Source: Massilia sp. 9096 (GTDB lineage Bacteria > Pseudomonadota > Gammaproteobacteria > Burkholderiales > Burkholderiaceae_D). From it: DNA of 64,000 nt. The first letter of the stretch is position 1; every line of letters begins with the position of its first letter. The DNA lies in NCBI RefSeq assembly GCF_000745265.1, contig NZ_JQNN01000002.1:91829-155828 (forward strand), in the 5' to 3' direction. The notes beneath the pieces are model-generated. The model had not been told where the DNA came from. It saw only the letters and a list, made by a program, of their open reading frames with translations, and did not search any database. Positions 8,255-39,859 of this stretch are shown here, piece by piece. The position numbers were made by a program, and so were the translations under genes.

Positions 8255-8357
8255 GACCGCTTGTGGCCGGTTGCGGTCGGTCGAGCCAGCATAGCAGGTT
8301 GCCGAGCTGACAAACTCTCAGACTGTCACGACCGGCAGCTCTCGACCCAAAGCGGTC
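8255..8357 (-). repeat. 103-bp intergenic palindromic repeat, copy 1
   Basis: Full-length copy with ends GACCGCTT and AAGCGGTC and core GAGCCAGCATAGCAGGTTG. It fills the gap between two minus-strand genes: 6 bp below the stop of the upstream gene and 13 bp before the start of the next. Written here as minus because it shares the direction of the neighbouring genes. Confidence 0.85.
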
Positions 8358-8363
8358 GTCCGG

Positions 8364-8708
8364 TTATTCGCTTCCATAGCTGGCAGTCCAGCTATTCCAT
8401 GCATCTTCGTTTCGCGCATAGACAGCAATGGGCAGGAAAGTGCGCTGTTGCGGGAAAGGATTGGATGCAAAATCTTCCGAAAACGAAATAGTAGGGCTGA
8501 GCGTCGCAAGGACATTGGTCATAACAACGCTCGCACATTCGCGTTCTTCGTCCGTCGGATCGCCATCGAACTCAAAACGCCCGCGTAGCCGTCCATCGTC
8601 AGCTATATCGAACGACACAGACCTTAGGCGTGGGGGAACTTCATCGAGCAAGGCACGCTGCGCCGCGAGACGAATTTCGGGCTCCGTTGGAAAAGCTGTT
8701 GTTTGCAT
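8364..8708 (-). CDS. Hypothetical protein, 114 aa
   Basis: Starts at ATG 8708 (MQTTAFPTEPEIR). Longer frames begin inside repeat copy 2 and are artefacts. The protein is soluble and acidic, with a helical N-terminus (AAQRALLDEVPPRLRSV), then alternating strands (FDIADDGRLRGRFEFDG) and an Arg/Glu segment (PTDEERECASVVMTNVL). I do not recognise the family. Size and neighbourhood (beside a SUKH gene, between two repeat copies) resemble small immunity-like proteins, but this is only context. Confidence 0.6.
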   Translation of the reverse strand: MQTTAFPTEPEIRLAAQRALLDEVPPRLRSVSFDIADDGRLRGRFEFDGDPTDEERECASVVMTNVLATLSPTISFSEDFASNPFPQQRTFLPIAVYARNEDAWNSWTASYGSE

Positions 8709-8733
8709 GACCGATGGCTCGCTCAGGTGTGAT

Positions 8734-8836
8734 GTCCGCTTCTGGCCGGTAGCAGACGGTCGAGCCAGCATAGCAGGTTGCCGAGCTGGCATACTCTCAG
8801 ACTATCACAACGGGTAGTTTCCGCCCCGAAGCAGAC
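8734..8836 (-). repeat. 103-bp intergenic palindromic repeat, copy 2
   Basis: Full-length copy, ends GTCCGCTT and AAGCAGAC, same core as copy 1. It lies just upstream of the 114-aa gene. Confidence 0.85.
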
Positions 8837-9020
8837 CTTTACTTAACTCTGCTTGCTAGACCACTCCTTCATTACTCTCATTCATTCGCAATTTTTTCTG
8901 CCACCTGGTAGCAAATAAAATGCTTTTGCATTGAGATTCACGCTATATTTCCAATAATTTTTGAACGTTTTGATTGCTTACCGCCGCCTGCTTCATAGCC
9001 AAACCTTGAAGGGAGTTCCC

Positions 9021-10610
9021 ATGAAGAAACGTATCCGCTCGTTCAGCTGGAAACTGGCACGCATCGGTTGCGCTCTGCATCTGATAGCGTCGGGCGGGTA
9101 CACGGCAGCGGAGACCATAAAGGGCTCTCCCGATGTGCAGACCAAGGCCCGCATTACCCGCATTGAAAATGGCTTGCTTGAACCCGTCGTCGTGCAGGGT
9201 GCGCCAGCTCGCATGATGCGCTTGGCCGACCGCATGCGCGACCTTCACGTACCTGGCGTGAGCGTGGCTTTGATCGACGGTGGTCGTATCGCTTGGGCGC
9301 GCGCTTGGGGCGTAGCGGATGCAGCCAGTGGCCGTCCAGTAACTCCCGCCACTCTTTTTCAGGCAGCCTCGATCAGCAAACCCGTCGCGGCCGTCACCAC
9401 ACTCCAACTGGCGGCTCGGCGATTAGTCGACCTGGATGAAAATGTAAATCGCCGCCTGCACCAATGGCATCTGTCGGACAGCCGATTGACGGCGCAACGA
9501 CCAGTGACAGCGCGCGACCTGATAAGCCACACGGCTGGCCTGTCCGAATACGGCCTGTCTGGCTATGCTGCCGAAAGTTCTTGTCCGACCTTGCTGCAGG
9601 TTTTGCAGGGCACTCCTCCAGCGGATAATCCAGAGGTACGGGTCGAAATCGAGCCGGGCACCGGGTACGTCTATTCCAGCCTTGGTTACGCTGTACTCCA
9701 GCAATACCTCACCGATGCGACCGGCCGGCCCTTCAATGAACTGGCCCATAACATGGTTCTGGCGCCGCTCGGGATGCATGACTCGATGTTTGCCACAACG
9801 TTGCCGTTCAAACTGGCCACGCGAGCAGCTGTCGGACACGAAATGGACGGGACACCGCTGTTCGGCGGCTGGCATCGTTATCCCGAACAGGCGGCCGCCG
9901 GCCTATGGACCACTGCGTCCGATTTGGCGCGATTTGCGATCGCGCTGCAAGCGGCAGCCCAAGGCCGCAATGACGATTTCCTGACCCAGCAGCAGACGCG
10001 CGAACTATTGACGCCAGTTCGTGGCCAGTACGGGCTCGGGTTTGAGCTTGATCACCAGGGTCAGGAAGCCACGTTCCACCACAGCGGTTCAAATGCAGGA
10101 TACAAGGCGCTACTATTCGCCTATACTCGGACTGGGCAAGGCGCAGTAATCCTAACGAATGGGGACTATGGTTGGACCTTAATCGAGGAATTCATGCGCA
10201 GCATTGCGGCCGAATACGCGTGGCAGGATTGGCACCAGATCGGGCGCGTTGCGGCGCCCGCTAACCCTGCGCTGTACGACCGTTTCACCGGAGAGTATGT
10301 CGTGTCCAATACTATGCTGCGCATTACACGCCATGGCAGCCATCTGTATGCGTCCGGGCCGCCGTTCGGACCGGACACGGTCGAGCTGATCCCGGCCGGT
10401 GATTATGATTACTTTATTCGCGAAAAGGACGCCAAGCTGCATTTCGATTCAAACGGTGGTGCTCTGGTGCAAACCATCACGTTTGTTGACGGCCGGCCGC
10501 GGCCCGGTAAGCGTATCAGCGGCACCCGCACGTCTGCGGCTGGGGCGTCAGAGAATACTGCGTGGGCTCCAGCTCCCGACCAGAGCACGCAATCGCGTCG
10601 CCAAGATTAA
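9021..10610 (+). CDS. Secreted serine hydrolase, class C beta-lactamase fold
   Basis: A 529-residue protein with an N-terminal signal peptide (about residues 1-30), so probably periplasmic. The start at 9021 has an AAGGGAG ribosome site. The nucleophile motif is S117-I-S-K120. The second motif is Y218-S-S220, where most relatives have Y-S-N. A third, H-S-G in HHSGSNAGYK, lies near residue 355. A C-terminal beta-rich domain follows from about residue 420, as in DUF3471-type hydrolases. Activity is likely esterase, peptidase or beta-lactamase-like, and the substrate is unknown. It stands alone, with repeat copies on both sides. Confidence 0.8.
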   Translation: MKKRIRSFSWKLARIGCALHLIASGGYTAAETIKGSPDVQTKARITRIENGLLEPVVVQGAPARMMRLADRMRDLHVPGVSVALIDGGRIAWARAWGVADAASGRPVTPATLFQAASISKPVAAVTTLQLAARRLVDLDENVNRRLHQWHLSDSRLTAQRPVTARDLISHTAGLSEYGLSGYAAESSCPTLLQVLQGTPPADNPEVRVEIEPGTGYVYSSLGYAVLQQYLTDATGRPFNELAHNMVLAPLGMHDSMFATTLPFKLATRAAVGHEMDGTPLFGGWHRYPEQAAAGLWTTASDLARFAIALQAAAQGRNDDFLTQQQTRELLTPVRGQYGLGFELDHQGQEATFHHSGSNAGYKALLFAYTRTGQGAVILTNGDYGWTLIEEFMRSIAAEYAWQDWHQIGRVAAPANPALYDRFTGEYVVSNTMLRITRHGSHLYASGPPFGPDTVELIPAGDYDYFIREKDAKLHFDSNGGALVQTITFVDGRPRPGKRISGTRTSAAGASENTAWAPAPDQSTQSRRQD

Positions 10611-10650
10611 GTCATCAGAAGAACATTTCGCCACTGTCCCGATCTACAAC

Positions 10651-10752
10651 GGCTACTTGTGGCCGATAGCAGACGGTCGAGCCAGCATAGCATGTTGCCG
10701 GGTTGGAAATGTCTCGTACAGTTACGACAGGTGGCACTCGACCGATAGTACG
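10651..10752 (-). repeat. 103-bp intergenic repeat, copy 3 (diverged)
   Basis: Recognisable by the core GAGCCAGCATAGCATGTTG and the TGGCCGATAGCAGACGG end. It sits between two convergent genes. The 3' end is degraded. Confidence 0.7.
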
Positions 10753-10812
10753 TCATCAAGACCGAGCAGTAGCGTGCCAACAACAATCGCTCGGGTGCGT
10801 CCCGGTTGCCGG

Positions 10813-11202
10813 TTACTTGCTGGCGTCAGCGGCCGGGGGTAAGCCGAGCTGTTGGCGGCAGCTATTACGCATTGCAAGCTGCTCCGCATATGCCTCGGCC
10901 CGTTTCTTTTTCTTCGCGGCCTTATCCAGATTAGCCTGCGTGTCCGTATTGGCCTGCATGGCTTGCGCCGCTTTGATGCGTCGCGCCTCGAATTTGCTCA
11001 TATAGCAGTCGCAATAGGCCGGCAATTTGGCGTTGCCTTTCAAATCTGACTCTCCGAACGGTGCCGGAAAATTGGCGGATTGCAAACAGGCGTTCGAGCC
11101 GGTCATGTCTTGGATAGTCTCAGATTGCGCTTGTGCGTTCGGTAGCGAAATGCAAGCCAAAACAGCCGCGCTAAACAACGTGGTAACGATTTTGCTGTAC
11201 AT
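10813..11202 (-). CDS. Small secreted cysteine-containing protein, unknown function
   Basis: 129 residues with a clear signal peptide (IVTTLFSAAVLACISLPNA, cleaved after AQA). The mature part has four cysteines (ACLQ, YCDCYM, NSCRQ) and a charged helix in the middle (KAAKKKKRAEAYAEQLAMR). The pattern YCDCYMSKFE recalls periplasmic proteins stabilised by disulfides. No family is recognised. Confidence 0.65.
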   Translation of the reverse strand: MYSKIVTTLFSAAVLACISLPNAQAQSETIQDMTGSNACLQSANFPAPFGESDLKGNAKLPAYCDCYMSKFEARRIKAAQAMQANTDTQANLDKAAKKKKRAEAYAEQLAMRNSCRQQLGLPPAADASK

Positions 11203-11405
11203 CGTATGGGCTCCCGTTAGTTCGGAAAATCTAGTGTACGATTTTGTTGTCCACAGTACAAGTTTTAGACTATCGCCCGCTTTTTCCGGTTGTGTTCAGC
11301 CCGACCCAGCGACGCTAAGCGTTGTTTAACAGCGAAGAACATCGCGGCACAAGTATTCCTCATTGGCTTTAAAGCACTGATTGACGAAGTTAGGATAATC
11401 CTAAC

Positions 11406-11508
11406 GTCCGCCTCTGGCCGAACCCGGCCAGTCGAGCCAGCATAGCAGGTTGCTTCAGGGGAAAGTTCACGGAGTATCACAAACGACCGCAACCGACCCA
11501 TTCCGGAC
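11406..11508 (-). repeat. 103-bp intergenic palindromic repeat, copy 4
   Basis: Full length, ends GTCCGCCT and TTCCGGAC. It starts 14 bp below the stop of the minus-strand gene at 11523. Confidence 0.85.
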
Positions 11509-11522
11509 GTAGCTTTCTCTGA

Positions 11523-12041
11523 TTAACGTCGTGTAGGCAGATGTTCGATCAGAGCGTCGAGTGTCACAGTGTCCTCATCGCCCTGCGCCAGCGATCGTAA
11601 GTCGACACCGCTAACGATGCCGCCATGTCGGAACGCCTTGACTTGCGCTAGTTCCTTTCCATCCTTGACCTTGACAGGAGCCCACTCTACGAACCCTGGT
11701 TTCATGTGGACGAGGATGGGCTGATGCGTGATCGGAAAATGTGTACCACCCCATTCGCCGATTCGGGTGTCGAACGTGTGCGGCCCGGGTTGCATGTCGC
11801 CAAGCAGTACCCTATCGACCACGAATTCCGTCTTGTCACATCCGCCATCGTTTGAAATGCAGACGTATGTAGTTCCATCGGGATTATGACGACCGCTGGC
11901 CGCGCAAAGGTCTGCGCAGTACTGGCCACCGCGCGGTTCCAAAGTGACGCGCTCCACATGGGCGACGAAAAGTGATTCCTGCGCCTTTGCCGAAGTGCAT
12001 GCGACCCACGACAGAGCCATGCACAAGAATAGTGTTTTCAT
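11523..12041 (-). CDS. Secreted protein of unknown function, 172 aa
   Basis: Starts at ATG 12041 with a signal peptide (MKTLFLCMALSWVACTSAKA). The mature protein has several cysteines (QYCADLCAASG, VCISNDGGCDK) and a beta-rich body (FVVDRVLLGDMQPG, then GTHFPITHQPILVHM). The body recalls the inhibitor-like beta sandwiches of small periplasmic proteins. The longer upstream frame reads into repeat copy 5. The family is not recognised. Confidence 0.65.
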   Translation of the reverse strand: MKTLFLCMALSWVACTSAKAQESLFVAHVERVTLEPRGGQYCADLCAASGRHNPDGTTYVCISNDGGCDKTEFVVDRVLLGDMQPGPHTFDTRIGEWGGTHFPITHQPILVHMKPGFVEWAPVKVKDGKELAQVKAFRHGGIVSGVDLRSLAQGDEDTVTLDALIEHLPTRR

Positions 12042-12091: not shown

Positions 12092-12195
12092 TGGCCGCTT
12101 TTGGCCGGTAGCGGACGGTCAGTTCAGCATAGCATGTTGCCGAGTCGAAAAAACAACCGACTGTCGCGAACTTCCGCTGCCGACCCGAAGCAGTC
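12092..12195 (-). repeat. 103-bp intergenic repeat, copy 5
   Basis: Near full length; core TTCAGCATAGCATGTTGCC, right end CGACCCGAAGCAGTC. Slightly diverged. Confidence 0.75.
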
Positions 12196-13390: not shown

Positions 13391-13492
13391 GGCTGCTTAT
13401 GGCCGGTTGCAGACGGTCGAGCCAGCTTAGCATGTTGCTGGTCTGACAAACTCTCGAACTGTCTTCACAAGCTGCTTCCGACTAAAGCAAAC
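13391..13492 (-). repeat. 103-bp intergenic repeat, copy 6
   Basis: Core GAGCCAGCTTAGCATGTTGC and left end GGCTGCTTATGGCC. It lies between the convergent tetR and GFA genes, 13 bp from the GFA stop. Confidence 0.75.
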
Positions 13493-13505
13493 CTTGTCAC
13501 AGCCC

Positions 13506-13965: not shown

Positions 13966-14015
13966 CCGTCTGCTTCTGGCCGATAGCCGTCTCTGCTGAA
14001 CGACTTAAAGAGACG
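13966..14015 (-). repeat. Partial copy (7) of the intergenic repeat
   Basis: Only the outer end GTCTGCTTCTGGCCGATAG survives, upstream of the GFA gene. Next to it CGTCTC and GAGACG form a separate short inverted repeat (about 13988-14015). Confidence 0.5.
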
Positions 14016-14028
14016 TCTGCAGTCTAGG

Positions 14029-16070: not shown

Positions 16071-16117
16071 GTCCGCTTCTGGCCGATAGCAGACGGTTGA
16101 GACAGCATAGAATGTTG
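16071..16117 (-). repeat. Partial copy (8) of the intergenic repeat
   Basis: The outer 47 bp (CGTCCGCTTCTGGCCGATAG and the core start) abut the stop codon of the GGDEF-EAL gene at 16118. The other half is missing. Confidence 0.65.
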
Positions 16118-18436
16118 CTATGCCGCCACCAATTTCCCTATGCGACCTAGCTGCGACACGAGATGCTCCAAAGGCACTGGTCGGGAGAATAGGTAGCCTT
16201 GCATAGCAGGAGCTCCATTTGCGGCGAGAAAGCGTGCTTGAGCAACAGTTTCTACCCCTTCGGCCACGACTTGCAGTCCTAAGTGACCGGCCATAGCGAT
16301 AATCGATTGAACGATGGCGCTGCCATTGGCCTTGCCATTCTGGCTATTTTCGTCTTCGTTAGCTATATCGTTTATGAAACTGCGGTCGATTTTTAATTCG
16401 AATAGAGGCATACGTCTGAGGTAAGCCAAGCTAGAATAACCAGTCCCAAAATCGTCTATCGACATGCGGATTCCAAGCGCAGCAAGTTCGTGCATGCGAT
16501 CGATAACATTGTCATGTGAATCGACGAACAGGCCTTCGGTTACTTCGAAAATGAGCTGGTCAGCCGGTGTCGCAGTATCGTGCAGCAGCGTCCGAACATC
16601 CTCAACAAAATTAGGATGACGAAATTGGGTCGGACTGACATTCACAGATAGTGGCATACTGTGACCTGCTTTGGTCAGTGCGTGCCAAGCAGCGCACGCA
16701 CTGCGCAGAGCAAATTGGCCCAGAACAATGATCAGACCATTTTCCTCAGCGAGCGGAATGAATAGGTCCGGCGGTACCGTGCTACCGTCGGCACGACGCC
16801 ACCGCATCAGCAATTCAGCTCCGACGGGACTGCCTTCAGGATTGACTTGCAATTGCAAGTGCATACTCAGTTCGCTATTGTGGAGGGCTGCAGCAAGGTC
16901 GTCCTGCAAGGTCAGCCGGAACTCCATTTCGGCACGCATAGTGGCCTCAAACAAGACTACCCGGTTCCGCCCACTGGTCTTGGCACGGTACATAGCTGTG
17001 TCGGCTTCCGACAAAAGGTCTTGAACGGTGTTCGTCCGCTTACCCATCAAAGTGACACCGATGCTGGCCGATGACTGGTACTCGTGGCCGTTGATTGCAA
17101 ACCCTTCGGCAACCGCGTAACGGATCTTTTCTGCCATTGCCAGCGCGGTGACGGTAGCAAGATGCTCATCGTAGCCTAGACCAGCTAGCATCACCACAAA
17201 TTCATCGCCACCTAACCGCGCCACGGTGTCCCGCGGCCCGACCAGGCCAGATAAGCGCGCACCTGCAGCGGCCAGTAGATTGTCACCAATGGCATGGCCG
17301 CGAGCATCGTTGAGCACCTTGAAGTTGTCCAGGTCGATGAACATTATCGCACTAATGCCAGCGCTCGCGTCAGCAACTAGGACTTCCAAGCGTTCCATTA
17401 GCAATCGGCGGTTGGGTAGTCCCGTTAGTACATCATAGAACGCTAGCTTATGGATGCTCGTTTCAGACTTTTTGCGCTCTGTGATGTCATGGGCAGTACC
17501 GACCCAATGAGTTCGCACCCCACTGGCGTCAGCAAAGGGCTTCAGCTCAAATTCGATCCAATATGAGATACCGTTTTTTGTGTAATATTCCAACTCGCTC
17601 GACACTGCAACACCGTTATTGATCGCATCGCGGATGCGAGCTATTTCAAGTGGACTGGAATTGGGGCCCAAGAGTATTCGCCAGCTACCACCTATCATCT
17701 CCTCGCGGCTGTATCCCGTGTGCCGTTCAAAAGCATCGTTGACATAAATTATCGGCTGAGCAGCGCCAGGGCTGTCGACAATGCGGGCAATTACTACCAT
17801 GTCGCTTAGGCCCGATAAAGCGGCAGCAGTCAGGCTCAATTCAGCATTGACTTCATGTAGCTCAAGTTTGCCCTCATGTAGAGAATGAGCGGTCGCGTGC
17901 AGTTCCACAAGGGAATCGGCAAGACGTTTCAACAAGAACGAACACGATAGGGTCATTCCTGTACCAAGAAAACTATAGGTAATCGTGATTAACATAGCAT
18001 AGCCGAAGCCACTCTGGTCAACCCCTGCCAGGTGAACGGTTCCGATCCCGCTATAGCTAATAACGAAAACCGCGACACTGCCAATAGCGGTCGTAAATAA
18101 GGCGACTTTTGTACCAAGCAGTAACGTTGCCATGATTGGTCCGGCCAGCAAATAGATCTGGCTGCTCGTGCCAACCGTCACCATCAAACCGCAACCGAAT
18201 ATCAGATTCATAGCTAGAAATTGCATGACTCTGAACCGAAATGAGATGTGCTGTGCCAAGCGTAAAGCGGCTACCCAGCTCAGCGCAATAACATCAAGCA
18301 CAATCACCGCTTGTAAATTATTACCTAATAAACTTAGGCTAGGAACAGCTGCCATTAGGCCTAGTACAAGCGTAATAGTTAGAATCGCATTAAATAACTG
18401 CGTCCGCCAACGTGCCAAATTTTCGAGGGAGTTCAA
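16118..18436 (-). CDS. Membrane-bound PAS-GGDEF-EAL cyclic-di-GMP signalling protein
   Basis: 772 residues. About six hydrophobic segments fill residues 15-170, then a PAS domain (about 205-325: YVNDAFERHTGYSREEMIGG). The GGDEF domain (about 330-495) has an intact GGDEF at 409-413. The inhibitory site is missing, with G at 400 where RxxD would need R. The EAL domain (about 505-765) has E542-L-L in place of EAL, with DDFGTGYSSL, KIDRSFI and VVAEGVET all present. Both cyclase and phosphodiesterase activity are possible. It sits alone on the minus strand and probably acts at the inner membrane as a sensor. Confidence 0.9.
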   Translation of the reverse strand: MNSLENLARWRTQLFNAILTITLVLGLMAAVPSLSLLGNNLQAVIVLDVIALSWVAALRLAQHISFRFRVMQFLAMNLIFGCGLMVTVGTSSQIYLLAGPIMATLLLGTKVALFTTAIGSVAVFVISYSGIGTVHLAGVDQSGFGYAMLITITYSFLGTGMTLSCSFLLKRLADSLVELHATAHSLHEGKLELHEVNAELSLTAAALSGLSDMVVIARIVDSPGAAQPIIYVNDAFERHTGYSREEMIGGSWRILLGPNSSPLEIARIRDAINNGVAVSSELEYYTKNGISYWIEFELKPFADASGVRTHWVGTAHDITERKKSETSIHKLAFYDVLTGLPNRRLLMERLEVLVADASAGISAIMFIDLDNFKVLNDARGHAIGDNLLAAAGARLSGLVGPRDTVARLGGDEFVVMLAGLGYDEHLATVTALAMAEKIRYAVAEGFAINGHEYQSSASIGVTLMGKRTNTVQDLLSEADTAMYRAKTSGRNRVVLFEATMRAEMEFRLTLQDDLAAALHNSELSMHLQLQVNPEGSPVGAELLMRWRRADGSTVPPDLFIPLAEENGLIIVLGQFALRSACAAWHALTKAGHSMPLSVNVSPTQFRHPNFVEDVRTLLHDTATPADQLIFEVTEGLFVDSHDNVIDRMHELAALGIRMSIDDFGTGYSSLAYLRRMPLFELKIDRSFINDIANEDENSQNGKANGSAIVQSIIAMAGHLGLQVVAEGVETVAQARFLAANGAPAMQGYLFSRPVPLEHLVSQLGRIGKLVAA

Positions 18437-20211: not shown

Positions 20212-21831
20212 ATGCAACTTAGTTTTCGCGCAAAACTTTATCTACCACTGATCATCAGTTGGCTCTGTCTTTCGGGAATGACAATTTTCCACATCTTCGA
20301 AAGCAGGACGCAGCGCTTCGAAGAGCGGCAACTGGCACTCAAATTCGCTACCGATGTCGGTATGGCGACCGTGAAGGAATATGCTGCACTGGCCAAGTCG
20401 GGCGCGATCCCGCTGGAGCAAGCCAAGCAAGAGGCGTTAAAGCGTCTGAAGGCAATGCGCTATGGCAAAGATGGCTACTACTCGATTATTAATTCGCATC
20501 CAACAATGGTGATGCATCCGTTGAAAGCGTCTCTGATCGGTAAGGACTTGACCGACTTCCAGGATGCGCACGGAACTTATCTTTATCGTGATGCGGCCTT
20601 GATCGCAAAGGATACCGGTGAGGGCTGGATCGAGTATGTCTGGCCCAAGCCTGGCAATCCCGACCAGACCATGGTTTTCGACAAGGGCGCTTATGTGCTC
20701 ACCTATAAACCATGGGACTGGACATTCATCACCGGCCTATATATGGACGATCTGGAGGCCGTCTTCGTGCAAGACCTGTGGCGCGCGGCCATTGCCTTGC
20801 TGGTTGTCGGCGTTGCGCTTACTGCGCTCGTGATCGGGGTTATCCGTAGCCTGCGGCGGTCCATCGGCCAGGCAGTCGATGCAGCTAACGCGGTGGCAAA
20901 CGGCGACTTGACGCATCAAATCCATATCGAGGGCAGCGACGAGATTGCGCGGTTGCTTGCCTCACTCGCAGCCATGCAGGTCAGCTTGACAGGTGTCGTC
21001 AGCGAGGTGCGGGAGGGAACGCACATGATCGCTGCTGCTTCGTCGCAGATTGCGGGAGGTAATGAAGATCTGTCATCCCGTACCGAGCAGCAGGCGGGAT
21101 CGATCGAAATGACGGCACTGTCTCTGGAGGAGCTGGCGCGCAACGTGCGCCAGAACGGTGAGCATGCAGCGGTTGCTACGGCACTGGCGAAGTCCGCATC
21201 CGACGTCGCGACACATGGCAGCGTCGTTGTCGGGAATGTCGTGGAGACCATGGCTGCAATCAACGCTTCAGCACGCAAGATCGTCGACATCATCGGCGTC
21301 ATCGACGGCATTGCGTTCCAGACCAGCATCCTCGCACTGAACGCAGCCGTTGAAGCCGCGCGCGCCGGAGAACAGGGTAGGGGGTTTGCCGTCGTTGCTT
21401 CGGAAGTGCGTCACCTAGCGCAACGCTCGGCTGCCGCAGCGAAAGATGTAAAGCTGTTGATTGACGACTCGGTTGCCAAGGTCGATGTGGGGAGCGAACT
21501 CGTTAATCAAGCGGGTAGTACGATGAACGAGATTGTTGGCAGTGTAAAACGCGTGACGGAGACGATTGCCGAAATTGCCGAAACGGGCGTGAGCCAGCAG
21601 CTTGGCATCGGCAAGATCAATGACGCTGTATCTCACATGGACACGGCGCTGCAGCAAAATGCGGCGCTCGTGGAGGAGGCTGCCGCAACCTCGGCGTCGC
21701 TGCATGAGCAGGCCTCGAATCTTGCGCAGTTGGTGAGCGTATTCAAGTTGAACAAAACCGATGAGCGCCTGGCAGCCCTGCAGCAGAGAGGGACTATGCG
21801 ACTGACTGGCTCCCGGCTTGCTGTCGAGTGA
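20212..21831 (+). CDS. Methyl-accepting chemotaxis protein with single Cache sensor domain
   Basis: 539 residues from ATG 20212; a TTG at 20194 is an alternative. Transmembrane helix 1 (about residues 8-28) is followed by a periplasmic single-Cache-type domain (about 30-185: YGKDGYYSIINSHPTMVMHP and GWIEYVWPKPG). Helix 2 (about 192-215) leads into HAMP and the MCP signalling domain. The signalling tip reads DGIAFQTSILALNAAVEAAR, then GEQGRGFAVVASEVR. It relays ligand binding to CheA/CheW, and such Cache domains often bind small organic acids. No che genes are nearby. Confidence 0.9.
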   Translation: MQLSFRAKLYLPLIISWLCLSGMTIFHIFESRTQRFEERQLALKFATDVGMATVKEYAALAKSGAIPLEQAKQEALKRLKAMRYGKDGYYSIINSHPTMVMHPLKASLIGKDLTDFQDAHGTYLYRDAALIAKDTGEGWIEYVWPKPGNPDQTMVFDKGAYVLTYKPWDWTFITGLYMDDLEAVFVQDLWRAAIALLVVGVALTALVIGVIRSLRRSIGQAVDAANAVANGDLTHQIHIEGSDEIARLLASLAAMQVSLTGVVSEVREGTHMIAAASSQIAGGNEDLSSRTEQQAGSIEMTALSLEELARNVRQNGEHAAVATALAKSASDVATHGSVVVGNVVETMAAINASARKIVDIIGVIDGIAFQTSILALNAAVEAARAGEQGRGFAVVASEVRHLAQRSAAAAKDVKLLIDDSVAKVDVGSELVNQAGSTMNEIVGSVKRVTETIAEIAETGVSQQLGIGKINDAVSHMDTALQQNAALVEEAAATSASLHEQASNLAQLVSVFKLNKTDERLAALQQRGTMRLTGSRLAVE

Positions 21832-21920
21832 CCGATGTTGGACGGTTGCGATCAATCGACCCAGGATAGCAGGTTGCCCAAGCGGAAATGCGCTGACTAT
21901 CACGAATGTCCGCAACCGAC

Positions 21921-22060
21921 CCAGGCTGTGTAAAAACGCAAAAACTTAAAAGTTCTAGGGGTAGAGTGACCCCTCCCGAGCTCGAGAAAATCGCGTAGCG
22001 GCCGTTCTGAGAGGCCGATTTTTTTGTTCGACGATTTTTTCGTGTTTTTACACAGCCTGG
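21921..22060. mobile_element. 140-bp MITE-like element inserted in a repeat copy
   Basis: Perfect inverted ends CCAGGCTGTGTAAAAACG and CGTGTTTTTACACAGCCTGG (18-20 bp), extended by GAC/GTC in the flanks. It has no coding capacity and contains two internal hairpins. The GGCTGTGTAAAAAC type of end resembles terminal repeats of known transposon families, so this is probably a non-autonomous derivative mobilised in trans. Confidence 0.7.
21999..22025 (+). terminator. Intrinsic terminator inside the MITE-like element
   Basis: CGGCC-(9 nt)-GGCCG is followed by ATTTTTTTG, a stem plus T-run. It lies 170 bp after the chemoreceptor stop and could end that transcript. A second hairpin (AGGGGT/ACCCCT, 21956-21973) precedes it. 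Confidence 0.6.
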
Positions 22061-22404
22061 GTCGTTAGCGGAAGTACACGTCACGGGCCTAACCGCCCAT
22101 CTTTTCGCCAACGATGCACCGAAAGGTCACGCTCGCTTCCTTCGCCGATCTTCCAGCAGCGGACACACCATGGAAGCCAGCGAGTCGGTGTACCGACCAC
22201 AGCCATTTGCACGAAGTAGCGCCCTGGCATTCTCAGCATCGACTAGCTGGCACGACAGGGTGCTCAGCGCCAATGATGTATCAGTCGCACCACATTGTCG
22301 TTGCATGGCTAACTAACGCTGGGACTATTTGCTCCGGTTTTCAGCCTTCCACTATGCGACTCCTGTATTCTCGGTGACTTCCATGTCAGACGAGCGCGCC
22401 CATC

Positions 22405-22689
22405 ATGCAAATCCCGATTAACCTTCCAGGCAGCGTCACCGCGCTTATGACCTATGTTGACGATGCCGGATGGACTGAGCATGCTGAGCTTATCGTTCAA
22501 ATTATGATGTCGAGTGTCCATCCTGATCTCGAGTCGTCGGTTGCGATCGCTGCTTTTCTACCTCCTAACGTGCGTGCGAACGTCGCCAGTTTTCTAAGCG
22601 CGATCCTGTTGGAAGGTATCAGTAACGAGCAACGGTACACGATATTTTCTTGGACGCAGTGCTGGGCCTTAGCGAGCCTAGAACAGTAG
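22405..22689 (+). CDS. Hypothetical protein, 94 aa
   Basis: MQIPINLPGSVTALMTYVDD begins a small soluble protein, mostly helical by appearance. It has a Trp/Ala-rich middle (DDAGWTEHAELIVQIMMSS) and a helix LPPNVRANVASFLSAILLEG. No family is recognised. The composition is plausible for coding and the ATG is the first in frame. Confidence 0.45.
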   Translation: MQIPINLPGSVTALMTYVDDAGWTEHAELIVQIMMSSVHPDLESSVAIAAFLPPNVRANVASFLSAILLEGISNEQRYTIFSWTQCWALASLEQ

Positions 22690-22927
22690 ACGCTAAGGCC
22701 TTGTTGTAGAGCAAGTGGTCAATTCTTCACTAGAACATTTTACGTTGCGATCACTCGTCTGCTGCGACGGATTGGTCCCCCCAAGTTTGCTTCATAAACT
22801 GCACGCAAGGTGAATCGATAAGCGTCCTCTTGCGCGACTATCGAGTCCCTCTGACGAGCGCCATGCAGACTGTAGAGCCCGCCGACGTCGCCAAAGAAAA
22901 TTAGATATATAGCCCCTTAATACAGGA

Positions 22928-23242
22928 ATGATGATGATCGAAATTCAAGTGATTGATGACATCAGTGCGCCGATTTTGTTCTGCGATGTATGCGGCGGAC
23001 GCATCGCCGAGGCCGGTAAAGCAGCGATTGTTTTTAACAACTTCCGCATGAATGGTGAGCGCACAGAAATTCTGTATGTCCACAAAGGCAGCATTGATGG
23101 AAAGACTTGCCATCGCGATGCAGAGCAAATTATTAAGAGCGCCGGGGGCACGCCAGGTTGGCAGGGATTACAGGATGTTTTCGTTGACTTGGCCCATAAC
23201 ATAGCCTTTCCTCCTGCCCTCATGGCTGACTACGATGAGTAA
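22928..23242 (+). CDS. Hypothetical protein with CxxC motif, 104 aa
   Basis: The protein reads MMMIEIQVIDDISAPILFCD, then CDVCGGRIAEAGKAA, so one zinc-knuckle-like CxxC is present. A third cysteine lies at KTCHRDAEQ, which with its His could complete a metal site. The C-terminal half is WQGLQDVFVDLAHNI. No family is recognised. It is followed by IS6 remnant ends. Confidence 0.6.
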   Translation: MMMIEIQVIDDISAPILFCDVCGGRIAEAGKAAIVFNNFRMNGERTEILYVHKGSIDGKTCHRDAEQIIKSAGGTPGWQGLQDVFVDLAHNIAFPPALMADYDE

Positions 23243-23315
23243 TACAGGAAACCGTTTTGTCGCATTGACGAAGTGGCTAGTCATGTTGGGCAGACTATGA
23301 CACCTGAAGAATTAA

Positions 23316-23905
23316 GGTTCTGTCGCATTGCTAAGCGTTAAGCGAAGCGTTTCGGACCGAGCGTGGTCCAGCTTATACTGGACGGACTGTTCCCGCCAGC
23401 GCATAGAATTGATCGGCAATCGACGAGGCGACGACATCGATCGCAAACTGACCCTTACGGATCATATGCATGAGATCAATGCCTGCGAGCACATTGCTGG
23501 CGGCGCTAAACGACTTGAAGCCCAGCATCGGCTTGGTCACACGCTTAATCGCATGATGGTCTTGTTTGATAATGTTGTTGAGGTACTTGCCCTGGCGAAC
23601 TACGATCAGGACCGCCGTACTGCTGTTGATCTCATCGATCGCGGTCTTGTCGGCGCCGTTTTTATCCATTGCGATCTTTGTCGGAGCGCCGTGCTCACGC
23701 ATGGCTTTGTCGAAGAACCGCCGGGTAGCAATGTCACGATGCGCCGTCAAGAGGAAATCGACGGTCTTGCATTCCTTGTCGACAGCACGGTAGAGATACT
23801 TCCAGACACCCTTGACCTTCATGTACGTCTCGTCCATTCGCCAGCTGGCTCCAACCTTGCGTTTGTGCTTGCGCGACAGCTTTTCGATCAGCAAAGGCCC
23901 GGCAG
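23316..23905 (-). mobile_element. IS6-family remnant, type 2
   Basis: The left end GGTTCTGTCGCATTG is a typical IS6 terminal repeat. The element lacks its 5' third; homology ends near 23905, where a different gene starts. A second terminal-repeat-like string (GTTTTGTCGCATTG) occurs at about 23254. Confidence 0.75.
23373..23905 (-). pseudogene. IS6-family transposase, N-terminally truncated
   Basis: The catalytic domain is largely intact: SWRMDETYMKVKGVWKYLYR (first Asp), IAMDKNGADKTAIDEIN (second Asp) and IIKQDHHAIKRVTKPMLGFK (Glu). The zinc/HTH N-terminus is missing, so the protein should not bind its ends. The frame runs open to 23984, but those codons belong to unrelated DNA. Confidence 0.8.
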
Positions 23906-23914
23906 CTTGGCTTT

Positions 23915-24250
23915 TTGGTAGAAGGGTTAGATACGGAGACGATCGAAGACTGCCTTTTGCACGTTCAGCGGCTCGCACCCACAACTGATTCCTCGGCCGA
24001 ACTAGAGTCTTTTATCTACTATTGGCGTTTAGACGCCTTCCTGCCGTATCCGGGTGCTCCCAAACCACCGCCGCCGGGCGTTGCAATCAGCAATTTTTAC
24101 CGCCAGTTCTACGAAAGCCTTGGCCGGGAAAGAGCATCAAATCCGTGCCGCGTCCAGAACTGCAGGCGTGGCGCGATACAGTACAGTGTCTTGTGTCGAG
24201 TTAATCACTTCGAAAGCATTCAGAAAAAGCCATGTCAGTTTAACGACTAG
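23915..24250 (+). CDS. Hypothetical protein with conserved Cys/His tail, possibly 5'-truncated
   Basis: 111 residues. DTETIEDCLLHVQRL and FYRQFYESLGRERAS precede a Cys/His-rich end: PCRVQNCRRGAIQYSVLCRV, then NHFESIQKKPC. These cysteines could bind zinc. The start lies only 10 bp from the broken edge of the IS6 remnant, so upstream codons may have been lost. No function is recognised. Confidence 0.55.
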   Translation: MVEGLDTETIEDCLLHVQRLAPTTDSSAELESFIYYWRLDAFLPYPGAPKPPPPGVAISNFYRQFYESLGRERASNPCRVQNCRRGAIQYSVLCRVNHFESIQKKPCQFND

Positions 24251-24255
24251 CGAAA

Positions 24256-24358
24256 GGCCGCTGCGAGTCGGGTGCCGCCTATAGGGCCGGTGCGTTATCT
24301 TTTCGTCTCGGCAACATGCTATGCTGGCTCGACCGTCCGCAATCGGCCAGAAGCAGAC
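24256..24358 (+). repeat. 103-bp intergenic palindromic repeat, copy 10
   Basis: Full length in the opposite orientation to copies 1-9; core GGCAACATGCTATGCTGGCT, right end CCAGAAGCAGAC. It starts 5 bp after a plus-strand stop codon. Confidence 0.85.
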
Positions 24359-26519: not shown

Positions 26520-26580
26520 CGTCTGCTTTGGGTCGGAAGCGGACGGCTGTGTTAGTCTGCAACCGGCCAACAGCGGACGT
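26520..26580 (+). repeat. Copy 11 of the intergenic repeat, centre deleted
   Basis: Both outer arms (GTCTGCTTTGGGTCGGAAGC and CAACCGGCCAACAGCGGAC) are kept, but the core is missing, leaving a 61-bp near-palindrome. Confidence 0.65.
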
Positions 26581-27140: not shown

Positions 27141-27203
27141 CTTACGTATTGATAAGGATAATTGAGGTCGGCAGTTACATATGCGAACATTTACGAACGT
27201 CCG

Positions 27204-27301
27204 GTATGGGTCGATTTCAGCCGGCCGTGAAACTTCGTGAAGTTTTCTTCGCGTCAACCTGCTATGCCGACCTGAACGGCTTCAATCGGCCAATAGCAGT
27301 G
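27204..27301 (+). repeat. Copy 12 of the intergenic repeat (diverged)
   Basis: Core TCAACCTGCTATGCCGACCT and right end CGGCCAATAGCAG; 60 bp after a plus-strand stop. Confidence 0.65.
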
Positions 27302-28398: not shown

Positions 28399-28501
28399 GT
28401 CTGCAAGGGGGCGGAAGCGGCCTGTGGCGACAGTCCGAGAGTTTGTCGACGCGGCAACATGCTATGCTGGCTCGGCCGGCCGCAAACGGCCAGGAGCAGA
28501 C
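28399..28501 (+). repeat. 103-bp intergenic palindromic repeat, copy 13
   Basis: Full length with ends GTCTGC and GCAGAC; core GGCAACATGCTATGCTGGCT. It lies upstream of the 119-aa gene. Confidence 0.85.
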
Positions 28502-28971: not shown

Positions 28972-29074
28972 GTCTGCTCTGGGTCGGGACAGGCCTGTCG
29001 TGACAGTCTGAGAGTTTGTCGACTCGGCAACATGCTATGCTGACTCGACCGTCTGCAACCGGCCAGAAGCGGCC
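28972..29074 (+). repeat. 103-bp intergenic palindromic repeat, copy 14
   Basis: Full length, left arm GTCTGCTCTGGGTCGGGAC, right arm CAACCGGCCAGAAGCGGCC; 55 bp after a stop codon. Confidence 0.85.
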
Positions 29075-30444: not shown

Positions 30445-30477
30445 AAGAAAAGCTCAGCGGATAAGTCCGGCACATGT

Positions 30478-30576
30478 ACGCTTCGGGTCGGTTGCGTGCT
30501 GCCGCGGGATCTCTGAATTTTCAAAATAGCGACCTGCTATGCTGGGCCGAGAGGGATTCGGCTAAAACCGGTTCTT
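30478..30576 (+). repeat. Copy 15 of the intergenic repeat (diverged)
   Basis: Left arm CGCTTCGGGTCGGTTGC and core GCGACCTGCTATGCTGGG are clear; the right arm is degraded. It starts 33 bp after the monooxygenase stop. Confidence 0.65.
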
Positions 30577-34877: not shown

Positions 34878-34980
34878 GGCTGCTTTGGGTCGACAGCAGC
34901 CGGTCGTGACAGTCCGCGACTTTCCCAGTTCGGCAACCTGCTATGCTGAGCCGAACGGCCGGGTTCGGCCAAAAGCGGTC
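34878..34980 (+). repeat. 103-bp intergenic palindromic repeat, copy 16
   Basis: Full length; core GGCAACCTGCTATGCTGAGC, right arm GGGTTCGGCCAAAAGCGGTC. Confidence 0.85.
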
Positions 34981-35936: not shown

Positions 35937-36039
35937 GGCAGCAATGGGCCGGTTGCTGCCTGTCGTGACCGTTCGTGACTTTTTCGCATTGGCGACCTGC
36001 TATCCGAAACTGAACGGCCGAGATCGGCCAGAAGCAGAC
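35937..36039 (+). repeat. 103-bp intergenic repeat, copy 17
   Basis: Full length; core GCGACCTGCTATCCGAAACT is diverged, right arm GATCGGCCAGAAGCAGAC kept. It starts 23 bp after the hydrolase stop. Confidence 0.8.
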
Positions 36040-36212
36040 CTTTGATGCTGAGTACTCACATTTGTACCCGACTCTGCAAATTGCCCTTTTTGTATCGATG
36101 TTCGAAGCGCCGAAATGCCGAAATGCTCGCGGCAACGACGCTCGTATGGATCCGTCCGCAAATACTCCGGCCTGCTTACCATAAAATGGCACCTTAAAAG
36201 AAGAAGGAATAC

Positions 36213-37127
36213 ATGAAAAAAGCTATTTTTATTTCATATGCTTGGACATCCGGCACACACCGCGAATGGGTCAGGCTGTTAGCGATTCAGTTGCGATTGT
36301 TAGGTTATACGGTACAGATAGATAGCACTGTAGAGTACGGGGCTAGCTTAAGTAATTTCATGCGAGAGGTTACAGAAGCCGATCGGGTGCTGATGATCGT
36401 TGACGAAAATTATGTTGAGCGTGCTGACCGGCTTCCCGAGTCAGGGGTAGGTATTGAGAATCGATGGATTAGAAGCGTATTTAAAGAAAAGTCAGCCTCT
36501 TGGCTTTCAGTTCTCTTCGTAAACAATCCTAGCTACCTTTTGCCAGCCTGGTTAATTGACCAGCAACCCAAAGGCTTCAACTTCAATTCAAATGCGGATT
36601 TGAACAAATTCCCAGGGATTGAACAGATGGACGATCTCTGGCGATGGATAGAGGGACTGCCAGCTGACAAGGCGCACGCGCTTTCGGCAGCACGGCTTCT
36701 GGAACGTACGGCGCGGATTGAGAAAATCGACGCCATGCGCGATCCAGCAAACTACGCAAGCCCGGCGTTAGAAGGTCGGGTCACTTTTCAATACAAGGAC
36801 TACGCGCATTACACATTGGGTCATGGAGAGTATGAGTTCAAAGTGAACTTCAGCGATCGCGGTTTTGGTTCGGTCTACGTGTACATCGATAGTGGCCTTA
36901 AAGCTATTGGGCTCGTTACCGCTTCCGATTTTGACCGGCAGACAGTTGAGACTTTCCTGCGGCCAGGGCGAACTGCAGAGCCAAACGTGGGGCAAAGTAT
37001 CGTAATGATGAACGCGCTAGGGGCGTTGTGCATCATGAAGATCGAAGGGGGGCAGGCAGAGATTAATACGGATGTACACGTTCCTGCAGCGGTAACTTTC
37101 AGCTATCAAATCCTCGTCGGAAGATAG
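36213..37127 (+). CDS. TIR/SEFIR-domain protein with C-terminal beta domain
   Basis: 304 residues, good ribosome site (AGAAGGA). The N-terminal ~150 residues match a TIR/SEFIR domain: IFISYAWTSGTHREWVRLLA, QLRLLGYTVQID, and FMREVTEADRVLMIVDENYV. SGVGIENRW supplies a candidate catalytic glutamate for NAD cleavage. The remaining ~110 residues form a separate beta-rich domain (FQYKDYAHYTLGHGEYEFKV) of no known family. TIR proteins often act in antiviral NAD depletion or nucleotide signalling. Here no sensor gene (Argonaute, ThsA or CBASS) is adjacent, so a solo role is likely. Confidence 0.75.
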   Translation: MKKAIFISYAWTSGTHREWVRLLAIQLRLLGYTVQIDSTVEYGASLSNFMREVTEADRVLMIVDENYVERADRLPESGVGIENRWIRSVFKEKSASWLSVLFVNNPSYLLPAWLIDQQPKGFNFNSNADLNKFPGIEQMDDLWRWIEGLPADKAHALSAARLLERTARIEKIDAMRDPANYASPALEGRVTFQYKDYAHYTLGHGEYEFKVNFSDRGFGSVYVYIDSGLKAIGLVTASDFDRQTVETFLRPGRTAEPNVGQSIVMMNALGALCIMKIEGGQAEINTDVHVPAAVTFSYQILVGR

Positions 37128-37193
37128 AAGATCGTTTCTTCGATGACTTGCTTATAATTTGTAGGCGCAACCAGCTGACAAGTGGCGGTACGA

Positions 37194-37252
37194 GGTCCGC
37201 AAAAGTTCGGTTGCGGTCATTCAGAAGAGACCGCAACCGGCCAGAAGCAGAC
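37194..37252 (+). repeat. Copy 18 of the intergenic repeat, centre deleted
   Basis: Arms GGTCCGCAAAAGTTCGGTTG and CGCAACCGGCCAGAAGCAGAC-like right end remain, as in copy 11. Both internal deletions leave a compact palindrome. Confidence 0.6.
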
Positions 37253-37299
37253 GTTGGCTGGTACTTGGTTCTGATTCACGAGTAAACTTGAAATCGACG

Positions 37300-37746
37300 A
37301 TGGCCCGCATACCAAAAGACCATGTGATAGCAACAGTGCTGGTTGTTGCGCTTTGCTTATTAACGGCAACCGGTTTCTATCTTTATCGACGTGGTGTCGA
37401 CAGTGAGGGTGAGGCCAACTCAAGCTGTGAACAGTGGCCGCTGCCTTCAGTGGTAAGCCAATCTGGCTGGGCAATATCTGGACATATCACTGGCTGTTCT
37501 CCGCCTGCAGCAAGCGTAGTCAACTATGTCTACATCCATCCGCAAGACCAGAAGGAAAGTATCGAATTTATGGTCTTTCGTTATGAAGATGGTTATAAAG
37601 GCGACGAAATAACCTACAAGTGGATCGACGCGAGAACTGTTTTAATTTCGTTACGCCGGGCAGGACAAATCACCCGAATGCATAAGTCTGTCGGACCGAT
37701 CCAAATTCGTTACGACATCGGTGAGGACTACTCGGGTTCGAAGTAA
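37300..37746 (+). CDS. Membrane-anchored hypothetical protein, 148 aa
   Basis: Start at ATG 37300 (MARIPKDHVI); a TTG at 37288 is in frame. One N-terminal transmembrane helix (VIATVLVVALCLLTATGFYL), then a periplasmic part with two cysteines (SSCEQW, ITGCSPP) and a beta-rich end (IQIRYDIGEDYSG). The family is not recognised. It is flanked by repeat copies. Confidence 0.65.
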   Translation: MARIPKDHVIATVLVVALCLLTATGFYLYRRGVDSEGEANSSCEQWPLPSVVSQSGWAISGHITGCSPPAASVVNYVYIHPQDQKESIEFMVFRYEDGYKGDEITYKWIDARTVLISLRRAGQITRMHKSVGPIQIRYDIGEDYSGSK

Positions 37747-37828
37747 CGTTGCTCGCATCAGGACATAAGCATTTTAAGAATTGGCGATTCCGGGTCCATG
37801 GCAGCCGAGATAACTCAGGCATCAGAAG

Positions 37829-37931
37829 GGCCGCTTTGGGTCGAGAGCTGCCTGTCGTGACAGTCTGAGAGTTTGTCAGCTCGGCAACCTGCTATGCTGG
37901 CCTGAACGGCCGGGTTCGGCCAAGAGCGGAC
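37829..37931 (+). repeat. 103-bp intergenic palindromic repeat, copy 19
   Basis: Full length; left arm GGCCGCTTTGGGTCGAGAGC, core GGCAACCTGCTATGCTGGCC, right end CAAGAGCGGAC. Confidence 0.85.
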
Positions 37932-37951
37932 CATCGCAAGAAGGGCAAGGT

Positions 37952-38383
37952 ATGCGATCGCTGAGCATTTTGTTCGATGAGAAGTACGAGGACGCTACAT
38001 TTCATGACTCAGAACTTCTGTCATGTGTCGTCGACTTTGCGTGCGCAACTGCAACCTTGGAGTTCAATATCCAGTGTCGTGCGACCGCGCCAGACCAGCA
38101 GTTTTCGCTCAGATGCGGGACCCTTGAGTTTTCTGGGCTGTGTTTTTGCTCAGTCGAGCCAACCGTCTTCCAAAAACGGCCGGGAGGCGGCTCGTCATTG
38201 TGGATCACGGCGGAGGGCCCATTGCCAGATGACCGCTTGCAGGTAAGCGAGGCTGTATCTGGGAATTTGCCGCCGGAGGCCTTCACGCATTACCTGTATT
38301 CGAGTTCAACGAACAGCTTTATTGTCATCGCTGCTACAGGCGTGCAGTTCCGTTGGCGGCACACTGAGACTGAAATTCGTTGA
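37952..38383 (+). CDS. Hypothetical protein, possibly immunity-like, 143 aa
   Basis: MRSLSILFDEKYEDATFHDS is followed by ELLSCVVDFACATATLEFN. The pattern F-HD-x-L, then a strand with V-D, is common in small beta-sandwich immunity-type proteins. The C-terminal half ends in FIVIAATGVQFRWRH. No exact family is recognised. The next repeat copy starts 7 bp after the stop. Confidence 0.6.
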   Translation: MRSLSILFDEKYEDATFHDSELLSCVVDFACATATLEFNIQCRATAPDQQFSLRCGTLEFSGLCFCSVEPTVFQKRPGGGSSLWITAEGPLPDDRLQVSEAVSGNLPPEAFTHYLYSSSTNSFIVIAATGVQFRWRHTETEIR

Positions 38384-38390
38384 ATTGCGA

Positions 38391-38480
38391 GGTCTGCTTC
38401 GGGTCGGTTGCAGTCAGTCGTGAGAGTGAGGTAGCTTTTCACGTGTCAACTTGCCATGCTAGGCCGAGTTTAGACTCGCG
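38391..38480 (+). repeat. Copy 20 of the intergenic repeat, right arm lost
   Basis: Left arm GTCTGCTTCGGGTCGGTTGC is perfect; core TCAACTTGCCATGCTAGGCC is diverged, then similarity ends. Confidence 0.65.
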
Positions 38481-38546
38481 TGTTGGACAACGAGCACAGC
38501 GCCAGCGTGTAGTATGTCTGCTATTCCTTTTCTCCCTGCCCGCTGT

Positions 38547-39710
38547 TCAAAATGCCGCTGTCGCTCGGCGGCGCAACCACTCAGCGAATGCCTCGTCTTC
38601 TACGCGGTACTCACCAATAGACAGGCGAGTAACCATGTTCTCGGTCTGGAGTCGGCGCAGCGCGTGCGATGCGGTGTTCTTTGTCGCCGCAATACCGAGA
38701 ATCGACGAAAGTCGTTTGAGACCGGCTGCGCCGTGCAAGTCGGCCTCGCCGCGGGCAATGAGAGTGACAACCGCTTGGTCGGCTGGGCTCATTGCGCTCC
38801 ACTGCTTCAAGAAATGCTCGTCGGAAAACACGGACGACCTTGTGTGTTCGAGCGCAGCGTCCGCGCCTTCGGTTTGGTACAGCATGTAGCGCTCAACGAA
38901 ACGTTTGAAAAACTCCGGGGTGTGATGAAGTTCGGTGAAGGCGTGCTTACCCTGCTCACGCGTTAGCTGATGCCTGGCAAGAGTATTCATGAGCGCGATC
39001 GTGAAGTCGACGAACTCGTCGCCTAGGAGAGGAAATGGCTCGAGGGGCGCCCAATTGTAAAACGGCTCGGACGCGCGAGCGAACATGGCGCGTAGCGTCG
39101 TTTCCGAGCTGCCAGCGAATATCACTTTGATGTGTGCCTTACGCACGTCGAGCGCGGCACGCAGTGCGTGGGCGAAGTTGCTGTGGTTGGCACCGGCTAG
39201 CACCTGAGCCTCATCGATGACCAGCAAAAGCGACTTCTTCTGGCCATCCAGCTGCTTGAGCACTTCGCCCAGCTGCGACGCTTTGTTTTCGGCAGAACCG
39301 AGCTCGGCTTCAATGGAACCTTCGACCCCGCCAGGAATCTTCGCGCCGGCCTTGAGCTTACGCACTGGGCGGCGCAAGCCAGCGAAAAGCGCTTTCACCC
39401 CGTGCGGCTCAAGTGCGTCAGCCAAGGCGGAAACCAGCGCGGCATCTGGCGCCGCCCGGTTATCCCAAAGGTTCGTATAGGCTACAAGATATCCTCGCTC
39501 ACGCGCCGCTGGAAGAAGATCCTGCTGTAGAAACTCTGTCTTGCCCATACGACGCCTGGCAAACAGGCCGCGCGCTGATGAGAGCTTAAGGTCGAATGCG
39601 TCCAGATAGGCCGCAGCCAATACCGGCCTCGGGAAATGCCATGGATCCGGCTTGGCGGCATCGTTCTGTATCATCGGATGTGAGAAGTATCGGAATATGT
39701 GATACTGCAT
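38547..39710 (-). CDS. AAA+ ATPase with C-terminal winged helix
   Basis: 387 residues. Walker A at 51-58 (ARRRMGKT, with A in place of the first G), Walker B LLLVIDEAQVL near residue 173, and sensor-like FAGSSETTLR. The C-terminal ~80 residues form a winged helix (LSSILGIAATKNTASHALRR). The design resembles STAND/ORC-Cdc6-like ATPases such as the ATPase-of-transposition type or MNS-clade proteins. No partner gene is adjacent, as both neighbours are unrelated. Role unknown; candidates are DNA loading or a defence sensor. Confidence 0.75.
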   Translation of the reverse strand: MQYHIFRYFSHPMIQNDAAKPDPWHFPRPVLAAAYLDAFDLKLSSARGLFARRRMGKTEFLQQDLLPAARERGYLVAYTNLWDNRAAPDAALVSALADALEPHGVKALFAGLRRPVRKLKAGAKIPGGVEGSIEAELGSAENKASQLGEVLKQLDGQKKSLLLVIDEAQVLAGANHSNFAHALRAALDVRKAHIKVIFAGSSETTLRAMFARASEPFYNWAPLEPFPLLGDEFVDFTIALMNTLARHQLTREQGKHAFTELHHTPEFFKRFVERYMLYQTEGADAALEHTRSSVFSDEHFLKQWSAMSPADQAVVTLIARGEADLHGAAGLKRLSSILGIAATKNTASHALRRLQTENMVTRLSIGEYRVEDEAFAEWLRRRATAAF

Positions 39711-39799
39711 GATACCATGTTATGTGCTCTCTTCTTCTGCTATGTCGAACCAGATGCGCGACGAGCACAATCACTTAACCGAACCCTCTCGTTGCTCTA

Positions 39800-39859
39800 C
39801 AGGTAACAAGCCAGTACACTGAGCTGAGTTAAACGGCCGAGTTTGGCCAGAAGCAGACA
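39800..39859 (+). repeat. Partial copy (21) of the intergenic repeat
   Basis: Only the right half is left (AAACGGCCGAGTTTGGCCAG ending AAGCAGAC), 19 bp before the DUF4279 gene. Confidence 0.6.

Follow-up and report, generated by a model that had tools for sequence, protein, structure and literature searches.

The ends of the attC sites of integrons carry the motif RYYYAAC ... GTTRRRY. DNA invertases of the FimB/FimE type flip one promoter segment and do not serve arrays. According to the sections of PMC2727003 drawn on here, recombination of attC is restricted to L'-R', and integron arrays left as orphans are treated in parts of PMC9024848 as clusters of attC sites lacking integron integrases (CALINs). 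The dif site, as laid out in the portion of PMC13141974 used here, consists of two boxes around a 6-bp centre, and the dif modules of Acinetobacter described there obey an alternation rule similar to the one found in this work, but are moved by XerC/XerD. Here we analysed a stretch of 64,000 nucleotides from Massilia sp. 9096 (the window; positions 91829-155828 of contig C2 in a two-contig, 5.71-Mb genome whose other contig is called C1), in which an intergenic repeat of 103 bp with inverted ends recurs. Judging from sequence comparisons, we consider it quite likely that this repeat is a double site-specific recombination site joining gene cassettes, within an integron-like or dif-module-like platform run by a tyrosine recombinase of about 207 amino acids (aa).

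The original prediction described the repeat as a constant-length unit bearing inverted ends, belonging to no family known by name, and as a description this was right. Through weak matches to the 3' end alone we found a second form of 58 bp, which has both ends of the 103-bp form and lacks its long centre. In 35 stretches taken from this genome and from relatives, paired sites (n=117, pairs up to about 150 bp being admitted) spanned 102-103 bp in 69 cases, 58-59 bp in 39 and another length in 9. By eye, the consensus of each site comprises four similar boxes, R'' (GTCYGCTT), L'' (TTGCRGAC), L' (GTCYGCAA) and R' (AAGCRGAC), which form two inverted cores around a centre piece. Each core contains an 8-bp spacer whose central 6 bp are nearly fixed. 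In the 5' core (A) they read GGGTCG at 23 of the 31 long sites; in the 3' core (B) they read CGGCCA at 28 of these 31 and at all 18 short sites. When 119 A and 126 B cores from this genome and its relatives were compared, information was highest in the central 6 bp, and on the gene side conservation dropped off about 3-4 nt past the 24-nt core. Read along an array, a B core is followed by genes, then by the next A core, and an A core by a centre piece, then by a B core. The inverted look of the site would follow if one enzyme binds four similar boxes. An extended -10 promoter-like motif (TGnTATnnT) was noticed in 24 of 31 long centres (alignment columns 62-70), reading toward the next cassette; as the copies are homologous, a promoter in the long centre is only an idea.

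Genes are exchanged between sites, and the breaks fall at A and at B cores. Several cassettes are present more than once in this genome, and in twelve hand-picked pairs of sites with one common flank, compared by eye, identity ended in a core, A or B, in all twelve. For example, two sites retain GTCCGGAATGGGTCGG beside a common upstream gene and then differ, and other pairs are identical from CGGCCA on, together with a common downstream gene. Three of the twelve pairs keep the centre together with one of the neighbours, the break then lying at the other core; furthermore, odd letters of the gene-side box travel along with the gene. Shared blocks (at least 120 bp long and at least 90% identical, not independent events) were compared over 22 stretches from this genome and from relatives; 36 of their 67 ends fall no more than 20 nt from a core centre, compared with 5.2% for random positions. 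These core-associated ends, 16 at A and 20 at B, lie on 31 distinct cores, and 27 of the 36 fall within 5.5 nt of the core centre.

The arrays are polar and built of small units. Neighbouring sites less than 3 kb apart agreed in orientation in 197 cases and disagreed in 18, and the cassettes (n=196) had a median length of 560 bp; the longest open reading frame of at least 70 aa was co-oriented with the site in 155 cassettes, opposed to it in 28 and absent from 13, these cassette and orientation counts including cassettes shared between stretches. In the window, cassette genes matched Pfam families as diverse as a serine hydrolase (Beta-lactamase family), Darcynin, GFA, a ferritin-like protein, GGDEF/EAL, a chemotaxis receptor, bSEFIR/TIR, an alpha/beta hydrolase and an aldo-keto reductase, and several genes were without a Pfam match; the array looks like a cassette store rather than an operon. 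One cassette gene (36213-37127, plus strand) encodes a candidate bSEFIR/TIR-type defence protein. A feature absent from the original prediction is that all counted copies lie on the minus strand from 8.2 to 21.9 kb and on the plus strand from 24.2 to 39.9 kb. At this change of orientation sits a 2-kb segment with an IS6-family transposase, which is duplicated at 96.7% identity (window 21916-23906 and C2 53009-55000). Where orientation switches on C2, tblastn found no remnant of an integrase.

The original prediction counted about 21 copies in the window, and we likewise found copies at 21 places between 8.2 and 39.9 kb, with long, short, halved and decayed forms counted. Each of the nine 103-bp copies it named was recovered at its given start, and four more of this length start at 10651, 12093, 13391 and 27199. 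It had also seen no copy at 0-8 and 40-64 kb. This stood in so far as a scan of both flanks gave only one weak A-like matrix match (13.2 bits at 51405, uncounted), but the gap is merely local, as the repeat goes on to the left of the window on C2, where copies are crowded at about 74-88 kb. On C1 there are clusters at about 2.58-2.61, 2.95, 3.02-3.03 and 3.10 Mb. A second weak A-like match (14.0 bits at 17491), inside the array and in a coding frame, was not counted either. In a control sequence of 124 kb, made by shuffling two-base blocks, core B had 0 matches of 10 bits or more, and core A had 7.

An absence of copies from related genomes had been named as evidence against the family; copies of the 103-bp form (E <= 1e-5) occur in 17 of 61 genomes, namely this one and 16 relatives, all of the same genus. 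Named records that match the repeat are plasmids of Massilia and Janthinobacterium and two Oxalobacteraceae/Massilia contigs. The small integrase introduced below is spread more widely: within the order it occurs in 38 of 399 genomes, representing 32 of 158 genera (fragments included), and it is also found on plasmids of alpha-, beta- and gammaproteobacteria. Of 1503 plasmid records with a match, 531 span 80% or more of the enzyme, an upper bound that includes other recombinases. Across the 399 genomes of the order, the exact short-site pattern was found in 9 and its reversed control in 4, with some matches resembling chance coding sequence; being too strict and too near the control, it is uninformative on distribution.

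In the Massilia sp. 9096 genome, a broken tyrosine recombinase gene lies between oppositely oriented cores at about 2.583 Mb of C1. Its intact relatives measure about 207 aa, with the Pfam Phage_integrase domain at residues 40-191 of 207, and presumably have no room for a core-binding domain of the usual size. The top NCBIfam models for this small integrase are Xer, all far under their cut-offs; the closest solved structures are a XerC-like recombinase, XerD and XerH; and the integron integrase model TIGR02249 scored 23 bits against a cut-off of 265. It also resembles the small tyrosine recombinases of the NCBIfam 'tyrosine-type DNA invertase' models (198 and 200 positions), which we take to be of the FimB/FimE type, but the match is weak, scoring 21.8-22.5 bits where the cut-offs are 221-222. 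For a relative from a viral contig, AlphaFold gave a poor model from five sequences (mean predicted local distance difference test score 55).

Roughly half of the integrase loci analysed have B cores next to the gene. These cores were present at 27 of 56 integrase loci against 0.9 expected from shuffles (the broken copy of this genome being among the 56, and three more loci without an integrase match excluded), and the cores near the gene pointed outward in 51 cases and inward in 12; without four places entered twice in the set, the figures are 25 of 52 loci, with 47 cores outward and 9 inward. Positions often taken by a B core are 129-141 nt before the integrase gene or 33-109 nt after it. 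The motif CGGCCA was found within 160 nt past the integrase stop at 28 of 47 distinct loci, these hits not being each verified as a core, against a background further downstream of 0.12 per 160 nt. Strong inverted brackets occurred at 8 of 55 integrase loci (a few entered twice) and never in shuffles; TGGCCG stands on both sides in seven of these eight loci and on one side in the eighth, and one of them is a Pseudomonas aeruginosa plasmid. Of the transposase or REP-associated tyrosine transposase (RAYT) with matching ends that the original prediction suggested looking for, the RAYT gave no match in this genome; a small tyrosine recombinase is often bracketed by the same half-sites.

Several integrase loci hold features of interest in their own right. 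In a relative of the genus (locus L079, 1029-1358, minus strand), an H-NS-like gene (PF00816) is divergent from the small integrase and lies inside the bracketing B cores; by eye, at the nucleotide level, sequence resembling this gene was also seen upstream of the integrase in several other relatives. At a locus from a viral contig (L198), the small integrase is flanked by a site of two B-type cores and a site of two A-type cores (2414-2472 and 5862-5919, by eye), symmetric sites that fit a two-code system. A Roseomonas plasmid (L177) carries two related small integrase genes (4195-5621 and 6979-8410), each adjoining a divergent pair of genes, one annotated as a RelE/ParE-family toxin and the other as a hypothetical protein with the same accession.

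From these arrangements we infer that the small integrase performs the exchange, together with an overlap rule and a route of insertion. A dedicated recombinase of about 207 aa, with little beyond the catalytic domain, would recombine A with A or B with B at the central 6 bp. As these 6 bp are unequal, recombination of A with B would be hindered, so that the array would stay polar. Recombination within a direct pair of B cores, or of A cores, would release a circle of one gene and one centre. The integrase gene would occupy the place of a centre piece, bracketed by outward B cores acting like attI, and a B x B insertion at the integrase-side core would produce the order integrase, B, gene, A-centre-B, gene, A-centre-B. 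Because outward B cores lie on both sides of the enzyme, cassettes would build up on both sides of it, pointing away from the integrase.

Several observations weigh against this proposal. The sole integrase copy found in this genome has an internal stop codon and lies on the other contig (C1), so that the arrays studied here are probably silent or served in trans. Thirteen of the 16 site-bearing relatives gave no integrase match (four of these thirteen, G026, G031, G032 and G036, fall outside the named part of the match list), and one of the three remaining has only a 34-residue integrase fragment. With most site carriers being without the enzyme, their arrays would be orphans, as happens with integrons, or be served by another enzyme; in 13 stretches from nine such relatives the arrays are mostly of one orientation, so that they may be orphan arrays analogous to CALINs. 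Among the first six plasmid loci of the enzyme, a short site (E <= 0.01) was found at two and none at four, which slightly lowered our confidence in the proposal and slightly raised that in the XerC/XerD alternative discussed below. Likewise, 29 of the 56 integrase loci, mostly of other families, lack a B core by the matrix built from this genome. As for the breaks, 31 of the 67 block ends are not near a core, 2 of them coming from the duplication that holds the IS6 transposase, and homologous recombination between repeats could contribute. Finally, the top match in the genome to the integron integrase model is a different protein, a 498-aa tyrosine recombinase frame (C1 3505533-3506336, minus strand) that scores 84 bits, under the cut-off of 265; none of the listed repeat copies lies near this frame at C1 3.506 Mb.

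The identities first suggested for the repeat were a miniature inverted-repeat transposable element (MITE), a repetitive extragenic palindromic (REP) unit or an RNA element, to which can be added gene exchange by homologous recombination between dispersed copies. The constant length and palindromic, intergenic character of the repeat, seen in the 31 long copies aligned, speak for such explanations, which nevertheless appear very improbable. No target-site duplication of 2-9 nt rose above shuffles in the 31 long copies, and the exchange of flanking genes has its breaks within the repeat, contrary to the MITE guess; these breaks cluster at two 6-bp centres. The REP guess lost its ground with the absence of any RAYT match (PF01797) from the genome, when 5 of 14 control genomes were positive. 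Rfam gave 0 matches in the window at gathering thresholds, and pairs in the arms of the long form showed no covariation above shuffles, neither of which agrees with an RNA element; RNAalifold folded the long form into a weak consensus structure (-5.4 kcal/mol) and the short form into a plain hairpin (-16.8 kcal/mol), with a covariation term near zero in both. As to the enzyme, a DUF3701 tyrosine recombinase is encoded in the window (663 to about 2486, minus strand), on the same contig and among the arrays. It is scarcely credible as the enzyme of the system, since it is found in 3 of 37 genomes of the genus against 17 with 103-bp copies, and both occur together in only 2.

The likeness to integrons is extensive: polar arrays of small cassettes with mostly one gene each, inverted double-core sites in the layout R''-L''...L'-R', a core beside a tyrosine recombinase gene, and enzyme-less orphan arrays resembling CALINs as covered in parts of PMC9024848 and PMC2727003. 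It is highly doubtful, however, that these are divergent attC sites of an IntI-type integrase recombining a folded single strand. R boxes are missing, as neither RYYYAAC nor GTTRRRY stood within 12 nt of either end in any of 49 sites; breaks fall at both cores (A 16, B 20) and not only at L'-R', the restriction given for attC in the sections of PMC2727003 used; and the arms, without covariation above shuffles, give no sign of folded-strand selection. Nothing in the genome passed the TIGR02249 cut-off, the small integrase presumably has no room for a core-binding domain and is far under the IntI model, and the cores point away from it on both sides. Movement of dif modules by host XerC/XerD, as in Acinetobacter plasmids, with the small integrase as a bystander, agrees with the scarcity of this gene among site-bearing relatives, and core order and logos do reveal a feature of the plasmid dif (pdif) type, in that genes lie between inverted cores with a 6-bp centre and the modules alternate, much as in the portion of PMC13141974 used here. 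Even so, we regard it as unlikely. The same type of core brackets the integrase gene in several families and on a Pseudomonas plasmid, and in some relatives the recombinase gene is inside the array. The two boxes of each core are alike, unlike the distinct XerC and XerD boxes, and that portion of PMC13141974 makes no mention of a paired 58- or 103-bp spacing for pdif; here there are two fixed centres (GGGTCG and CGGCCA), a standard 58- or 103-bp joint and long polar arrays.

Table 1. Repeat sites and associated features of the Massilia sp. 9096 window (positions count from the first nucleotide of the window).
Positions	Strand	Feature	Detail
8255-8357	-	103-bp double site	B core 8255-8278, A core 8334-8357
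8358-39834		Gene cassettes between sites	One or a few genes each
8734-8836	-	103-bp double site	
10651-10753	-	103-bp double site	A core decayed
11406-11508	-	103-bp double site	Shares upstream flank and outer half of A with the copy at C2 75951; centre differs
12093-12195	-	103-bp double site	Upstream flank common with C2 77522, downstream flank common with C2 76638
13391-13493	-	103-bp double site	A end shifted, under the A matrix threshold
13968-14025	-	Short site	Good B core (13968-13991), diverged A core
16071-16126	-	B core and partial centre	B core 16071-16094; A half lost
21830-21926	-	Decayed long site	
23373-23984	-	IS6-family transposase (PF13610)	In the stretch where array orientation changes
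24256-24358	+	103-bp double site	A core 24256-24279, B core 24335-24358
26521-26578	+	58-bp double site	A core 26521-26544, B core 26555-26578
27199-27301	+	103-bp double site	
28399-28501	+	103-bp double site	Downstream flank recurs at C1 ~3.0956 Mb
28972-29074	+	103-bp double site	Upstream flank recurs at C1 ~3.0961 Mb, there with a short-form site
30476-30573	+	Decayed long site	
34878-34980	+	103-bp double site	
35937-36039	+	103-bp double site	
37195-37252	+	58-bp double site	
37829-37931	+	103-bp double site	
38392-38467	+	A core and partial centre	A core 38392-38415; B half lost
39835-39858	+	Lone B core	Right array end

Outside the array, the window holds two further loci. Upstream of the DUF3701 recombinase lies the gene of a 710-aa DUF7380/DUF4209 protein (2486-4618, minus strand), which gave a very strong match to the candidate defence family PDC-S39 (E 1e-188). 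On the right, a large two-partner secretion (TPS) system occupies 43036-54951 (minus strand), where the gene of a 3390-aa protein with a TPS domain and haemagglutinin repeats adjoins that of a ShlB/FhaC-type transporter.

No description of such a system was found in open-access papers, an earlier description elsewhere being possible, and no such group was found in the parts consulted of two surveys of tyrosine recombinases (PMC8138268, PMC3414803). With modest confidence, we lean towards regarding it as a third class of mobile cassette platform beside integrons and XerCD dif modules, which would be characterized by a recombinase reduced to its catalytic domain, two incompatible 6-bp codes imposing polarity, arrays on two sides and, in some relatives, an H-NS-like silencer gene in the integrase module. 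Integron-finding programs would be expected to miss it, since the integrase and the sites both fail the features by which integrons are defined. If the proposal is true, a second integron-like system, built independently of integrons, exists in bacteria and would open up a reservoir of mobile genes, several of them of unknown function; and polarity arising from two incompatible exchange sequences alone, without the folding of single-stranded attC, would become directly testable.

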